The notes beneath the pieces are model-generated. The model saw only the letters and a program-made list of their open reading frames with translations. It did not search any database and was not told where the DNA came from. Shown piece by piece: positions 8,815-51,152 of a DNA stretch of 53,795 bases. Numbering within the stretch: the stretch's first letter is position 1; every line of letters begins with the position of its first letter. The position numbers and the translations under genes are program-made. Source of the stretch: Flavobacteriaceae bacterium (GTDB lineage: Bacteria; Bacteroidota; Bacteroidia; Flavobacteriales; Flavobacteriaceae); the NCBI GenBank assembly GCA_029248185.1, contig JAQWJV010000052.1, forward strand, positions 1-53,795, in the 5' to 3' direction.

Positions 8815-11187
8815 TTATTGATCTAAAATCTCGATTTTTGGTTCTTTCAACACTTTATCATTACTGATCGTATCTTCTAATGAAATAAGCAAGGAGGGGA
8901 GAAGAATTAAATTAGCTAACATTGCCATCAATAGGGTTACTGCAACTAGACCACCCAAGGCTTGAGTCCCTCCAAAGTTGGAGGATAAAAAGACAGAAAA
9001 CCCAAAGAATAATACGACAGATGTATAAAACATGCTAATCCCGGTTTCTCTTAAGGCAGCAAATACGGCTTGCTTAATTTTCCATTTATTTGATATTAAT
9101 TCCTGTCTGTATTTTGCTAAAAAGTGAATGGTGTCGTCCACTGAAATTCCAAAGGCAATACTGAAAACTAAAATAGTTGAAGGTTTAAGTGGAATTCCAG
9201 CAAATCCCATTACCCCAGCAGTGATGATCAAAGGTAAAAGATTCGGAATCAAGGAAATTAAGATCATTTTGAAGGATCGAAATAAATAAGCCATAAAAAA
9301 TGCAATCAGTAAGATGGCCAAGGATAAGGAAAGAATCAGATTATTTATGAGGTATTTTGTTCCTTTTAGAAAGAGTAACGATTTTCCTGTGATATTCACT
9401 CCGTAACGATCTTTGGGAAATATTTTCGTGATTGCTTTTTTTAGCTCTGCTTCAATAGTTTCCATACGATCGGTATCAATATCTTGCATGAAGGTGGTAA
9501 TTCTTCCAAACTGACCGGTACGATCAACATAACCACTCAGAAGCTGACTGTCTCCGTTGGCTTTACCCAAATAGGGGTAAATAAAGCTATTTTCTTGAGT
9601 CGTCGGAAGACTGTAGTAATTGGGATTGCCATTGTAATAGGCTTGTTTGGCGAACTTTACTGCATTGACCACTGAGAGGGGTGGGGCAAGTTCAGGGTAT
9701 TCTCCTATGACTTCTTGGAATTCGTTCATTCGCTTTAATGTAGCGGGTTTTACAATTCCATTTTCTCGTTTACTATCTAGCCAAATTTCAATAGGGACAA
9801 TTCCATTAAAGCTTTCATCAAAAAAGCGGATATCTTTAAAAAATGGGGCGCTTTTGGGCATGTCCTCAATAATACTTCCTGAAATTTTGATTTGATAAAT
9901 TCCAATAATTCCTATGATTAAACCCAATAGTGAAACGATATAGACATTGATGCGTTTTTTGCGCACCTTGTCTTCCATCCATTTTACAAAATAGTCGATG
10001 GATTTGTTTTTTAAATGCTTTAAATGTTTCTTCTTGGGAAGGCTCATGAAGCTGTAAACAATAGGGATGATTAAAAGAGAAAGCAGGAAAATGGAAACAA
10101 TATTTATGGAAGCGACCACACCGAACTCTTTTAAAATTTTACTATTGGTTAAAATAAAAGTCGCAAATCCAGAAGCCGTGGTCAGGTTGGTCATCAAGGT
10201 GGCATTCCCAATTTTTACAATAACACGCTGAAGTGATTTAGCTTGATTACTGTGTTTGGCGACCTCTTGTTGGTATTTGTTAATGAGAAAAATACAATTT
10301 GGAATTCCAATAACAATAATCAAAGGCGGTATTAAGGCTGTAAGTACGGTAATTTCATAGCCCAACCAACCTAGAATTCCAAAAGCCCACATGACTCCAA
10401 CTGCAACTACAATGAGTGAAATAAAGGTAGCTCTAAACGACCTAAAAAATAGAAAGAAAATTAAGGAGGTAATGAGTGTGGCTCCTAAAATAAAAAGTCC
10501 AATTTCATCAACAATGTTTTGGGCATTAAGTGTCCTAATGTAAGGCATTCCTGAGACACGTACATCCATTTGGGTATCCTCCTCAAAAGCCTCAATGAGT
10601 GGAATAAATGTTTTAAAAATGAAATCCTTTCGTGTAGCTGTATTAACGATATCGGGGTCCATGTAGATCAAGGTCCGAATGGTATTCGTTTCTGAATTGT
10701 AAATCAAATTATTGTAGAAAGGGAGTTCTAAAAATAATTTTTGCTTGAATTTTAATAAACCGAGTGAATCTTTGGCTGCACTGAGCTTGACCGTTTCAAG
10801 TTTAAAGCTTTCTGTTTGGGTGTCTTTGGTAAGCTCTTGTAAGTTGTCAATGGAGAGCACAAAGTTAATTTCTTTAAAGGCTGTAATGCTATCATTGAGT
10901 TGTCGCCAGGCATTACGCTTTTTAGGTGAAAAAAAAGTGGCGTCCTCTACTGCGATGACAATTACATTACCTTCCTCACCAAATGTGTTAACGAAAGATT
11001 GGTAGAGAATATTTTCAGGATGATCGTCGGGTAATAGGTTGGCTTCTGTAAAAGTAAATTGCATATACTTCCACTGTGATGCCCAAAAACCAGTCAGTGC
11101 AATAATAGCCGCAAGAATGAGTATTCTATTTCTTAGAATAAGTCGTGCCACTAGGCCCCATATATTGGATTGGTTTTTCTTTTTCAT
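8815..11187 (-). CDS. RND superfamily exporter (MMPL/HAE3 type)
   Basis: A 790-residue inner-membrane transporter with two repeats, each with a membrane helix, a large periplasmic domain and five further helices. Repeat 1 begins near residue 16 and its helix bundle lies at about 225-385. Repeat 2 begins near residue 412 with a helix bundle at about 640-775 containing SIAFGISVDDTIHFLAKYRQ, the conserved RND Asp-Asp motif. The MMPL-like architecture fits export of a lipid or hydrophobic molecule using proton force; the substrate is unknown. There is no membrane-fusion or outer-membrane partner nearby. It lies 33 bases after frr, an order common in Flavobacteriia. Confidence 0.87.
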   Translation of the reverse strand: MKKKNQSNIWGLVARLILRNRILILAAIIALTGFWASQWKYMQFTFTEANLLPDDHPENILYQSFVNTFGEEGNVIVIAVEDATFFSPKKRNAWRQLNDSITAFKEINFVLSIDNLQELTKDTQTESFKLETVKLSAAKDSLGLLKFKQKLFLELPFYNNLIYNSETNTIRTLIYMDPDIVNTATRKDFIFKTFIPLIEAFEEDTQMDVRVSGMPYIRTLNAQNIVDEIGLFILGATLITSLIFFLFFRSFRATFISLIVVAVGVMWAFGILGWLGYEITVLTALIPPLIIVIGIPNCIFLINKYQQEVAKHSNQAKSLQRVIVKIGNATLMTNLTTASGFATFILTNSKILKEFGVVASINIVSIFLLSLLIIPIVYSFMSLPKKKHLKHLKNKSIDYFVKWMEDKVRKKRINVYIVSLLGLIIGIIGIYQIKISGSIIEDMPKSAPFFKDIRFFDESFNGIVPIEIWLDSKRENGIVKPATLKRMNEFQEVIGEYPELAPPLSVVNAVKFAKQAYYNGNPNYYSLPTTQENSFIYPYLGKANGDSQLLSGYVDRTGQFGRITTFMQDIDTDRMETIEAELKKAITKIFPKDRYGVNITGKSLLFLKGTKYLINNLILSLSLAILLIAFFMAYLFRSFKMILISLIPNLLPLIITAGVMGFAGIPLKPSTILVFSIAFGISVDDTIHFLAKYRQELISNKWKIKQAVFAALRETGISMFYTSVVLFFGFSVFLSSNFGGTQALGGLVAVTLLMAMLANLILLPSLLISLEDTISNDKVLKEPKIEILDQ

Positions 11188-11220
11188 GAAGCTTGATTGG
11201 CAACCAGTGTGAAGAGTGCG

Positions 11221-11772
11221 TTAGACCGTTAAAATTTCTTTTTCTTTAATTCTAAAAATCTCATCCGCTTTTGCATTGTAGCGATCAGTTAGTTCTTGAA
11301 CATCAATTTCATAGTTCTTTTGGATGTCCTCGGAAGCCTCTGATTTTTTAATTTCATCATTAGCTTCTCTTCGTGCTGCTCGGATACCTATTTTAGCATT
11401 TTCAGTTTCTGATTTTGCCAATTTAGCTAGGTCTCGACGACGTTCTTCCGTCAGGGGTGGGATATTAATGATAATAGATTCCCCATTGTTCATAGGATTG
11501 AATCCTAAATTTGCAATGAGAATTGCTTTCTCTAATTCTTGGAGCATTCCTTTTTCCCAGGGCTGAACAGTAAGTGTTCTTCCGTCTGGGGTATTGATAT
11601 TTGCCACTTGACTAATGGGAGTCATAGTTCCATAATAATCAACTTTTACACTAGAGAGCATTATGGGGTTAGCTTTTCCAGCTCTGAGATTCAGCATTTC
11701 TTTTTCTAAATGCGCCAGCGCTTGATCCATACTCTCTTTTGCTGTATCGACAATAAAATCCATTTCTTCCAT
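11221..11772 (-). CDS. frr: Ribosome recycling factor
   Basis: Ribosome recycling factor splits post-termination ribosomes together with EF-G. The 183-residue sequence has the family hallmarks: LRAGKANPIMLSSVKVDYYG, a central domain with TPDGRTLTVQPWEKG, and IPPLTEERRRDLAKLAK before the long C-terminal helix. It follows pyrH by 10 bases, the conserved bacterial pairing, and is probably co-transcribed from the pyrH promoter. Confidence 0.97.
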   Translation of the reverse strand: MEEMDFIVDTAKESMDQALAHLEKEMLNLRAGKANPIMLSSVKVDYYGTMTPISQVANINTPDGRTLTVQPWEKGMLQELEKAILIANLGFNPMNNGESIIINIPPLTEERRRDLAKLAKSETENAKIGIRAARREANDEIKKSEASEDIQKNYEIDVQELTDRYNAKADEIFRIKEKEILTV

Positions 11773-24391: not shown

Positions 24392-24404
24392 ATATCAGAA
24401 TAAA

Positions 24405-30978: not shown

Positions 30979-31335
30979 TTAATGAATTACTAAACGTTTA
31001 TATCCTTTTTTACCGTCTTGTTTTAGGTAGAAAACATAAATGCCTGTTTCTAATTCACTTAACAGGATGGTATCTTCGTAAGTGTGTATCTCAATTTTTT
31101 TTTCGCCTAAAACATTATAAATTTCAATATGTTTTTCACCGGAGCCATTACTTTAAATAAAAAGTCTATGATTTTTTAGTGGATTGGGGAAGATTTTAAA
31201 GTCTAAGGAATCAGGATCTGTTTCAAACAGTTCCAAAGGGATTAATTTATTTTTTAGCTTATTCAACTCATTGGCATGAGCAAACAAAGCGATAAGGCAT
31301 ATGCAAAGAGTAATGATGTTTTTCATTAGGGGCAT
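30979..31335 (-). pseudogene. Small T9SS sorting-domain protein broken by an in-frame TAA
   Basis: The reading frame starts with a signal peptide (MKNIITLCICLIALFAHANE), has a short spacer of about 25 residues, then begins a type IX secretion C-terminal sorting domain (FKIFPNPLKNHRLFI). There it meets TAA at 31153-31155. In the same frame it continues for 57 more residues with the rest of the domain (IEIYNVLGEKKIEI, LSELETGIYVFYLKQDGKK, YKRLVIH) up to TAA at 30979-30981. One changed codon separates the two halves, so this looks like a recent nonsense mutation. Apart from the sorting domain there is almost no cargo. Promoter TATTTTTG at 31344-31351. Confidence 0.8.
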
Positions 31336-34287: not shown

Positions 34288-35418
34288 ATGAAAATTACCA
34301 AGGAAGCCGTAATCAATGCATTGAAAAAAATTTCACTCCCTGGGGAAGGAGAAAATATTGTAGATCGCGGGGTGGTATCCAATATCATGATCTTTGACGA
34401 TCAGATTGATGTTGATATTCAGCTTCAAAATCCAAGTTTACAAGCGAGAAAAAAACTCGAGGTAAGTATTTTGAAAACGATCCATGAGAATGTTTATGAG
34501 AAAGCAAAAATTAAAATCAACATTAAAGTTGTAAGTCCACCAGCCGAAGAAAACACGATCAAAGGCAAACCTATTAAAGGTATTGATAATGTAATTGCAA
34601 TTTCTTCTGGAAAGGGAGGTGTGGGGAAATCGACTGTTACGGCAAACATTGCCGTTACTTTAGCACAAATGGGATGTAAGGTAGGGGTCTTGGATGCCGA
34701 TATTTACGGTCCCTCTATTCCAACCATGTTTGATATGGAAGGTGCACGACCTCTTTCTGTTCAAGTAGAGGGTAAATCAATGATGGAACCCGTCGAAAAT
34801 TATGGAGTAAAAGTATTGTCTATTGGATTTTTCACAAAACCAGAACAGGCGGTAATTTGGAGAGGACCCATGGCTGCAAAAGCATTAAATCAAATGATTT
34901 TTGATGCTGCTTGGGGAGAATTAGATTTTTTGTTGATTGATCTTCCTCCAGGAACAGGCGATATTCATTTGAGTATTGTTCAGTCCTTACCCTTGAATGG
35001 TGCGGTTGTGATTAGTACACCTCAAAATGTAGCTTTGGCAGATGCTAAAAAAGGTATCTCCATGTTTCAACAAGACAATATTCAAGTTCCTGTGCTAGGA
35101 ATTATTGAAAATATGAGTTATTTCACTCCTCCAGAGTTACCCCAAAACAAATATTATATTTTTGGAAAAAAGGGGGCGGAATATTTAGCGAAAGATAAAG
35201 AAGTTCCTTTTTTAGGCGCTTTACCCATTGAACAAAGTGTTCGAGAAGCTGCTGACGCAGGCCGACCAGCAGGCCTTCAAGAGACAACACCCATAGCTGT
35301 AGCTTTTCAAGAAATTGCGAAAAAGCTGGTCTCTCAAGTCCTAATTAGAAATAAAAATTTACCTCCAACCAAAGCAGTAGAAATTACTAATTTAGTGGGC
35401 TGTGAAGCTGTAAAATAA
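34288..35418 (+). CDS. Mrp/ApbC (Nbp35-type) iron-sulfur carrier P-loop ATPase
   Basis: A 376-residue P-loop ATPase that handles iron-sulfur clusters. An N-terminal DUF59 (MIP18-like) domain covers about residues 1-90. The deviant Walker A is SSGKGGVGKSTVTANIAV (near residue 107), with VLDADIYGPSIPTMF and FLLIDLPPGTGDIHLSIVQ. The usual CxxC cluster-binding pair is absent: the region reads ENMSYFTPPELPQNKYYIFG, which I recall from other Bacteroidota. The next gene is a NifU C-terminal scaffold, so Mrp may depend on it for cluster binding. Confidence 0.93.
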   Translation: MKITKEAVINALKKISLPGEGENIVDRGVVSNIMIFDDQIDVDIQLQNPSLQARKKLEVSILKTIHENVYEKAKIKINIKVVSPPAEENTIKGKPIKGIDNVIAISSGKGGVGKSTVTANIAVTLAQMGCKVGVLDADIYGPSIPTMFDMEGARPLSVQVEGKSMMEPVENYGVKVLSIGFFTKPEQAVIWRGPMAAKALNQMIFDAAWGELDFLLIDLPPGTGDIHLSIVQSLPLNGAVVISTPQNVALADAKKGISMFQQDNIQVPVLGIIENMSYFTPPELPQNKYYIFGKKGAEYLAKDKEVPFLGALPIEQSVREAADAGRPAGLQETTPIAVAFQEIAKKLVSQVLIRNKNLPPTKAVEITNLVGCEAVK

Positions 35419-35424
35419 GAAACT

Positions 35425-35679
35425 ATGAATGCAGAGGAAATCAATGTTAAAATTTTAGAAGCCTTAGAAGAGATTCGTCCTTTCTTAAAGTCCGATGGAG
35501 GAGATATATCTCTTGTCTCTGTAGAGGAGGGTAAGCATGTTAAGGTTCAATTACACGGAGCCTGCGTGGGCTGTAGCGTGAATCAGATGACTTTAAAGTC
35601 TGGAGTTGAATTGACCATTAAAAGATACCTTCCTCAAATTGAAACGGTTACGAGTATAGATCCGAGTCACAATGATTAA
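35425..35679 (+). CDS. NifU C-terminal domain iron-sulfur scaffold
   Basis: An 84-residue protein that is just the NifU/Nfu C-terminal domain. The cluster-binding CxxC is GACVGCSVNQMTLKSG (Cys 47 and 50 region), preceded by LEEIRPFLKSDGGDISLV. It would carry and deliver Fe-S clusters. It lies 6 bases after mrp and its end overlaps the reductase start by 8 bases, so it belongs to one operon with them. Confidence 0.93.
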   Translation: MNAEEINVKILEALEEIRPFLKSDGGDISLVSVEEGKHVKVQLHGACVGCSVNQMTLKSGVELTIKRYLPQIETVTSIDPSHND

Positions 35680-36724
35680 AACAGATATTCTTATCATTGG
35701 AGCCGGACCTACGGGCTTATTTGCGGTTTTTGAAGCAGGATTGCTGCAACTTAAATGTCACTTAATCGATTCCCTTCCCATGCCTGGCGGTCAATGTGCT
35801 GAGATTTATCCCAAAAAACCCATTTATGATATTCCTTCTCATCCCGAAATACTTGCAGGGGATTTGGTGAAAAATCTAGAGCAACAAATCGCTCCTTTTC
35901 AACCGGGATATACACTTGGTGAAAGCGCAATCTCTATTGAAAAAACAGCTGAAAATGCATTTATTGTAACCACAGACAAAGGAACACAACATCAAGCCCC
36001 TGTTGTCGCAATAGCGGGTGGACTGGGGACTTTTGAGCCCCGAAAACCTCCTTTAAAAAATTTAGCCTTCTTTGAAGACAAGGGGGTGAGCTATATTATT
36101 AAAGAGCCTGAAATGTACAGGGATAAAAATGTTGTGATTGCTGGCGGAGGAGATTCCGCCTTAGATTGGACTATTTTCTTGGAAAATGTTGCAGCTTCTG
36201 TAACCTTGATTCATCGAAGAAATGAATTTAGAGGTGCCTTGGATTCAGTAGAAAAAGTGCAGCATTTGAAGAATGAAGGTAGAATCCAGTTGATAACTCC
36301 TGCAGAGGTTACCGCATTAGAAGGGGATGCCAAATTATCTTCCATTAGTGTAGATAAACAAGGAGAAATATTAAAAATAGACTGTGATCACTTTATCCCT
36401 CTCTTTGGACTGACCCCAAAACTGGGACCTATTGCCAATTGGGGGCTTGAAATTGAGAAGAATGCAATTAAAGTGGACAATACCTTAGACTATCAAACCA
36501 ATATTCCAGGAATTTACGCGATTGGTGATGTGAATACCTATCCGGGCAAATTAAAATTAATTTTATGTGGCTTTCACGAAGCGACTTTGATGTGTCAAAG
36601 TGCCTTCAAAAAAATCTATCCCGAAAAGCGAAATGTTTTGAAATATACTACAGTAAGTGGGGTTAGTGGATTTGATGGGTCTCAGAAACAGGCAGCAAAA
36701 TCTACAATCAAAGCAATAGAATAA
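35672..36724 (+). CDS. Ferredoxin-NADP(+) reductase (thioredoxin-reductase-like)
   Basis: A 350-residue flavoprotein of the TrxR-like ferredoxin-NADP reductase family, moving electrons between NADPH and ferredoxin. The FAD motif is IIGAGPTGLFAVFEAGLL (residues 6-23), followed by PGGQCAEIYPKKPIYDIPSH; the NADPH motif is VIAGGGDSALDWTIFLE; the second FAD motif is YAIGDVNTYPGKLKLI. It lacks the CxxC of thioredoxin reductase. Its partner ferredoxin gene starts 1 base later, but that gene carries a premature stop. Confidence 0.93.
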   Translation: MIKTDILIIGAGPTGLFAVFEAGLLQLKCHLIDSLPMPGGQCAEIYPKKPIYDIPSHPEILAGDLVKNLEQQIAPFQPGYTLGESAISIEKTAENAFIVTTDKGTQHQAPVVAIAGGLGTFEPRKPPLKNLAFFEDKGVSYIIKEPEMYRDKNVVIAGGGDSALDWTIFLENVAASVTLIHRRNEFRGALDSVEKVQHLKNEGRIQLITPAEVTALEGDAKLSSISVDKQGEILKIDCDHFIPLFGLTPKLGPIANWGLEIEKNAIKVDNTLDYQTNIPGIYAIGDVNTYPGKLKLILCGFHEATLMCQSAFKKIYPEKRNVLKYTTVSGVSGFDGSQKQAAKSTIKAIE

Positions 36725-36725
36725 A

Positions 36726-36968
36726 ATGTCCCAAGACATCACCATTTACCTAACGGATCGCGAAGGAAAGTTACATACTTTGATCGCACCTACCGACATG
36801 CAGATGAATCTCATGGAAATTTGTAAAGCTTATGAGCTTCCTGTTGAAGGAACTTGTGGAGGGATGGCCATGTGTGCTTCCTGTCAGTGTTATGTTGAAA
36901 GTGATCATCCCTTAGCTGAACGTTCTGAGGATGAAGAAGCAATGCTTTCAGAGGCTTTTTATGTTTAA
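36726..36968 (+). CDS. 2Fe-2S ferredoxin, truncated by a premature TAA
   Basis: An adrenodoxin-like ferredoxin, the expected electron partner of the upstream reductase. The 80-residue reading carries three cluster ligands in EGTCGGMAMCASCQCY. It ends with EEAMLSEAFYV and TAA (36966-36968). In frame beyond the TAA the family sequence goes on: ANSRLGCQIQMTKAIDG and IRLAPSE, then TAA at 37047-37049. The fourth ligand Cys (RLGC) is in this lost part. Related ferredoxins are about 107 residues long. The stop is one C-to-T change from CAA (Gln). The predicted short product should not hold a normal [2Fe-2S] cluster unless the stop is read through. Confidence 0.88.
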   Translation: MSQDITIYLTDREGKLHTLIAPTDMQMNLMEICKAYELPVEGTCGGMAMCASCQCYVESDHPLAERSEDEEAMLSEAFYV

Positions 36969-37049
36969 GCCAACAGTAGACTGGGTTGTCAAATACAAAT
37001 GACTAAAGCAATTGATGGATTGAAAATACGTTTAGCTCCTTCAGAATAA
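36969..37049 (+). other. In-frame ferredoxin C-terminal remnant beyond the premature stop
   Basis: Twenty-six codons plus TAA that continue the ferredoxin frame. They encode the fourth cluster cysteine (SRLGCQI) and the usual C-terminal strand (GLKIRLAPSE). Coding quality is intact, so the stop must be recent, tolerated by readthrough, or a sequence error. Confidence 0.85.
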
Positions 37050-50701: not shown

Positions 50702-51152
50702 ATGGAAAACAAGTCAACTTCATTGTGGGCCAAAGTCACTGCCACGATCCCCAAAACTAAAGAAAAGGTTTGGGAGGTACTTACGAATCCTAAATTAACG
50801 GAACAGTATATGTACAATTGCCAACTGCATTCCACTTGGAAGTTAGGTTCTGAAGCAGTATGGAAAGAAAAACAAGACGATGGAACTTGGCAAGACCATG
50901 TAGTAGCTGAAGTTTTGGCTTATAAACCCCTATGAACATTTGGCTTTTAAAATTTTTCATAAGGCGACGGAAGAGCAATCGAGAGCGGTTTCTGAATTAC
51001 ACTTTAATTTGGATACAGTAGCGAATTCAACTTTGTTAACGATTAAGCAAGGAGATTTTAATGCGATGGCCTCAGCTAAAAAAAATCATTAAGCCTGCCA
51101 GCAAGGATGGGAATATGTTTTACCAAAATTAATTGCAAGCTGTAATACATAA
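50702..51152 (+). pseudogene. SRPBCC/AHSA1-domain gene with frameshift and in-frame TAA
   Basis: The gene starts intact (WAKVTATIPKTKEKVWEVLTN, a typical START/AHSA1 N-terminus) and runs to YKPL and TGA near 50935. Removing one base from the C-run at 50927-50930 restores the frame, which then reads YEHLAFKIFHKATEEQSRAV, LDTVANSTLLTIKQGDFN and SAKKNH. It then meets TAA at 51090-51092, followed in frame by ACQQGWEYVLPKLIASCNT and TAA at 51150. The C-terminal GWEYVLPKL is the family end. Two lesions therefore separate it from an intact gene of about 149 residues. Confidence 0.83.

Follow-up and report, generated by a model that had tools for sequence, protein, structure and literature searches.

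The closest described counterparts of the gene analysed here encode adrenodoxin/Yah1-like [2Fe-2S] ferredoxins (PDB 2mjd, 2wlb, 3ah7). The gene shares with them the ligand arrangement C-X5-C-X2-C followed by Cys88 in RLGCQI, and its translation matches 2mjd (E 3.2e-15) in an alignment that runs across an in-frame TAA. Unlike those ferredoxins, its open frame ends 7 codons short of the fourth cysteine. Two kinds of interrupted gene are relevant to such a stop. Recent single-lesion pseudogenes carry one nonsense change in an otherwise coding-like sequence. In addition, Belinky et al. 2021 (PMC7918605) describe bacterial in-frame stops under purifying selection as widespread and mostly short-lived, and suggest readthrough.

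The window, the whole stretch of 53,795 nucleotides that was analysed, is one contig of a Flavobacteriaceae genome of 1.9 Mb in 53 contigs that is 89% complete. The interrupted ferredoxin gene is packed tightly behind genes for an Mrp-type ATPase, a NifU-like protein and a ferredoxin-NADP reductase (FNR), with spacings of 6, -8 and 1 bases along the series (Table 1). The three upstream genes are intact, with open frames throughout, as the preliminary description had stated. The reductase is homologous to solved ferredoxin-NADP reductases, and its translation contains no CxxC motif (no C..C), an absence that is expected for FNRs of the thioredoxin reductase (TrxR) type and sets it apart from TrxR itself. 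The nearest named records for the FNR locus are metagenome-assembled Flavobacteriaceae, one of them labelled MS024-2A (83% identity in FNR); titles of this kind suggest a marine source.

Table 1. Positions of the ferredoxin gene, its operon neighbours and two further broken genes in the window
Feature	Position	Strand	Description
Small T9SS-like gene	30982-31335	-	TAA 31155-31153, codon 61 of 118
Mrp/ApbC-type Fe-S carrier P-loop ATPase	34288..35418	+	Intact; PF10609, 314.9 bits
NifU-like Fe-S scaffold/carrier domain protein	35425..35679	+	Intact; PF01106, 90.3 bits
TrxR-type ferredoxin-NADP reductase (FNR)	35672..36724	+	Intact; best PDB match 5ygq, Ferredoxin--NADP reductase, E 2.8e-106
Adrenodoxin-like [2Fe-2S] ferredoxin gene	36726-37049	+	107 codons, TAA-interrupted
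Ferredoxin 5′ part	36726..36968	+	80 codons, Cys44/Cys50/Cys53, closed by premature TAA
Premature in-frame TAA	36966..36968	+	Codon 81 of 107
Ferredoxin 3′ part	36969..37049	+	26 codons, ferredoxin-like, fourth ligand Cys88, then the family's usual stop
SRPBCC/AHSA1-like gene	50714-51143	+	Frameshift near 50929, TAA at 51090

Past codon 81, the same frame reads ANSRLGCQIQMTKAIDGLKIRLAPSE up to the TAA at 37047-37049. With X placed at the stop, the 107-residue translation is 93% identical to its closest relative from end to end, and the alignments with the two best PDB matches, both adrenodoxin-type, cross the stop and reach the fourth cysteine, excluding a chance open reading frame as the origin of the post-stop part. 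The sequence and the PDB alignments therefore confirm the earlier reading that the frame closes at AFYV-TAA while 26 further codons, including RLGC, remain ferredoxin. Specifically, the open frame holds three of the four ligands of the pattern C-X5-C-X2-C-Xn-C (Cys44, Cys50 and Cys53), with Cys88 beyond the TAA. The 5′ part alone scores 19.9 bits against the Fer2 profile PF00111, under its gathering score of 21, and the translation with X at the stop passes with 24.9 bits. Replacing the stop by X still leaves the gene at 39.8 bits against the ISC ferredoxin equivalog TIGR02007, whose curated cut-off is 132.1.

A search of this genome for a second, intact copy gave a single match, the interrupted gene itself; the look for another ferredoxin gene that the preliminary description had advised thus found no further stand-alone adrenodoxin-type copy. 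Three other Fer2 hits in this genome fall within open frames whose lengths (365, 441 and 256 codons) suggest, respectively, a PaaE-like reductase, NqrF and the Fe-S subunit of succinate dehydrogenase. Scans for a promoter or terminator at the end of the ferredoxin gene gave nothing above chance, and a search of the window for a template from which the altered stretch could have been copied found no other site at ≤3 mismatches. The abstract openings of the literature on MS024-2A, readthrough, TrxR-type FNRs, in-frame stops in metagenomes and fourth-ligand mutants contained nothing on this gene.

The stop was compared with relatives in several samples. A search with X at the stop covered 100 genomes, of which 67 matched, this one included, and the gene has an internal stop in none of the other 66. 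Within the genus, the ferredoxin is present in 35 of the 37 other genomes searched, the two without it being 57% and 63% complete. In the family sample, the protein of the closest relative, G025, was matched in 330 of 397 genomes, and among the matches listed a stop occurs only in this genome. A further set was built from FNR loci (the best 80 of 374), which overlaps the 66-genome set, some contigs being the same: all 80 loci keep the ferredoxin, none with a stop, and 79 of the 80 have all four cysteines, so that a three-cysteine ferredoxin is indeed as unusual as had been supposed. The one exception in the best 80 of 374 is locus L051, whose ferredoxin (at about 11057-11362) carries Gly where the fourth ligand should stand (RLGGQI).

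The preliminary description had also considered that relatives might end naturally at AFYV. No such ending was seen: the gene is uninterrupted in all 66 genomes and in the best 80 of 374 loci. A truncated form belonging to the family is ruled out, since no relative compared ends at codon 80. That the 80-residue, three-cysteine protein is itself functional here, for example in Fe-S or metal binding, is scarcely credible; its intact 5′ part speaks for it and nothing else does, whereas the relatives compared all extend beyond this point and the 3′ part differs from that of G025 at only two amino acids, one adjoining the stop and one in a variable column.

The substitution pattern points to a gene that was long under constraint. 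Against G025, the 80 codons before the stop give dN 0.027 and dS 0.48 (dN/dS about 0.06), and the 26 codons after it give dN 0.059 and dS 0.69 (dN/dS about 0.09). Ratios far under 1 on both sides indicate that constraint acted on the entire gene for most of the period following the split from G025, and hence that the stop arose recently, is an error or is tolerated. Beyond the stop there are one synonymous and one nonsynonymous private change, too few to show relaxation. In the neighbouring FNR, 15 synonymous and 8 nonsynonymous changes are private to this genome, compared with 9 and 3 in G025, a difference that gives no clear sign of relaxed selection on the reductase.

The immediate surroundings of the stop carry a second change. 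In the 29 relatives, out of the 66, for which the locus was available, the stop column holds K in 19, R in 5, Q in 3 and E in 2; in the best 80 of 374 loci it holds K in 43, E in 20, Q in 12 and R in 5. The following column is acidic (Asp or Glu) in 26 of the 29 relatives and 76 of the 80 loci; here it is Ala, which occurs there in none of the 29 and none of the 80. A stop and a private Ala change in neighbouring codons weakly favour a true local mutation or early decay over an isolated miscall, clustered errors being known as well.

Taken together, these observations give about an even chance, in our estimate, to a recent nonsense change that inactivated the ferredoxin. The confinement of the stop to this genome among those compared supports this explanation, and if the sequence is correct the gene carries a lineage-private inactivating lesion, as a pseudogene does. 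The main alternative is that the stop is an error of consensus or assembly, or an uncommon strain variant that entered a metagenome-derived consensus, while the population has an intact ferredoxin; we regard it as a substantial possibility that falls short of probable. It draws on the near-universal presence of the gene in the genus sample, the purifying selection seen before as well as after the stop and the intact partner FNR. Furthermore, completeness and contig number fit a metagenome-assembled genome, and the Gly at the fourth ligand of L051 shows that single-copy oddities occur in such assemblies. Against it, a lone miscall fits less well with the adjoining private change.

The error rate of the assembly bears on this alternative directly. 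Open reading frames from 800 kb of genome G001 were compared with 454 kb of this genome, made up of the window and a further 400 kb. Matches below 50% identity or 70% coverage were dropped, and a stop was ignored if it fell within the initial 20 residues or 8% of a gene or within its final 5%. The 136 of 674 open reading frames that passed, about 133 kb of conserved genes, some of them inside the window itself, contain one internal stop, that of the ferredoxin, and one frameshift. The frameshift (contig C39, about 24392-24401, L189) adjoins an A run in a gene that is presumably acetyltransferase-like. In the reverse comparison, 135 of 413 open reading frames of this genome were mapped onto G001 and two were flagged: one at residue 51 of 360, read as a difference in N-terminal start, and another in which a divergent stretch of 53-56% identity contains stops and a frameshift. 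By these gene comparisons, the conserved genes of the assembly are for the most part intact, and the ferredoxin stop is conspicuous among them. A single internal stop among 136 such genes argues against a general error problem and supports a nonsense change, and a generally error-ridden assembly is disfavoured.

The rest of the window gives a less favourable picture. Two fast-evolving genes in it are also broken, one encoding what looks to us like a T9SS C-terminal sorting-domain protein and the other a product that we take to be SRPBCC/AHSA1-like (Table 1). In syntenic stretches, counted by eye with differences near gene starts and ends set aside, three genes are internally broken here (these two and the ferredoxin), compared with none in G023 and G033 and one or two in G030, which favours an error. 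Together with the C39 frameshift, the two broken window genes would also fit some assembly errors, and to that extent they oppose a true nonsense change. Elsewhere, the T9SS-like gene has in-frame stops at other positions in G030 and G005, and in G020 its sequence is spread over different frames and contains Ns; this pattern suggests that a fast-evolving gene has decayed repeatedly. Of 38 genomes searched for the SRPBCC/AHSA1-like gene, 9 including this one gave a match, and its G020 copy also contains stops.

A third explanation is that the TAA is read through at some rate, so that a little full-length ferredoxin is made and expression possibly kept low. The conserved 3′ part would suit this, as would the variable, hydrophilic stop column (K, E, Q, R), at which an inserted Gln, Lys or Glu should be tolerable, and the wide occurrence of in-frame stops under purifying selection in bacteria described in PMC7918605. 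Nevertheless, readthrough is unlikely. Among the 25 tRNAs over the Rfam cut-off, an incomplete set without Ala, Asn, Asp, Cys, Gln, Ile and Trp tRNAs, none has a UUA anticodon, which weighs weakly against suppression, and the RNA across the stop folds no better than shuffled sequences (z -0.47). TAA ends 258 of the 360 open reading frames of at least 150 codons examined and is thus the main natural stop, which rules out its reassignment. As at the ferredoxin stop, G follows TAA in 32 of these 258, indicating that the context is not special to the ferredoxin. Moreover, the stop is missing from every relative compared. The stronger proposal that a leaky stop lets the cell make full-length ferredoxin at a low and perhaps regulated level, the nonsense codon acting as an expression valve on a redox pair, is very doubtful. 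The preliminary description, which had offered a newly dead gene, readthrough or a sequence error, thus named the right three options; of these, readthrough has gained no positive sign, and an error in the form of a generally bad assembly is disfavoured.

Whether a genome of this family can do without the ferredoxin bears on the recent nonsense change. The family sample contains 67 ferredoxin-less genomes, and FNR was sought at E 1e-60 in the 20 of them that were listed. It is absent from 16 of these 20, including all 10 of high quality, and kept in 4, in one of which FNR runs off a contig end. In the other three (G212, G171 and G141, 83-88% complete), neither a genome search nor the surroundings of FNR yielded a ferredoxin of this kind, so that loss appears possible. 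In G212 and G171, Mrp, NifU and FNR are still in place without it (L155 and L156); a TAA flagged in the FNR of G141 is, by its coordinates, that gene's own end. Each of the three has another small Fer2 open reading frame, of 96 codons in G212, 120 in G171 and 88, at a contig end, in G141. FNR and ferredoxin thus usually seem to be kept or lost together, and the ferredoxin alone can apparently go, perhaps after replacement.

These precedents, together with an open reading frame with 4Fe-4S motifs in this genome (contig C52; about 119 codons, length and motifs judged by eye), support a nonsense change. Three observations oppose it: the co-loss with FNR and the presence of the ferredoxin in 35 of 37 genus genomes, by which FNR seems to need it; the lack of clear relaxation in FNR; and the search of this genome for a small Fer2 open reading frame like those of G212 and G171, which found none over the cut-off. 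Flavodoxin (PF00258), sought in this genome as a substitute carrier, was likewise absent.

If the nonsense change is real, we infer a recent event, private to this genome or strain, that would have hit the only stand-alone adrenodoxin-type [2Fe-2S] ferredoxin found in the genome. The 80-residue product would keep three cluster cysteines and lose the fourth and the C-terminal part, and no stable cluster would be expected. The upstream FNR would then lose its usual partner, or electrons might pass to another carrier, for example the 4Fe-4S-type protein of C52. A conserved ferredoxin would thus have been caught in the course of being lost, with its reductase still intact, as a step towards the ferredoxin-less operons of G212 and G171. 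If the stop is an error, it matters for annotation only. The locus also cautions against using one consensus sequence to declare a gene of this type inactive or a shortened protein genuine.

One nonsense codon that is confined to a single genome and interrupts a conserved gene is a phenomenon of a known and fairly ordinary kind. The locus resembles the stops treated by Belinky et al. 2021 (PMC7918605) in having a single in-frame stop in a gene under purifying selection; that study focuses on stops at the same position in at least two species, whereas the stop here is found in one genome. Like single-lesion pseudogenes, the ferredoxin gene has one nonsense change and is otherwise coding-like, but it comes from a well-conserved redox pair, and its inactivity is presumed from the stop.
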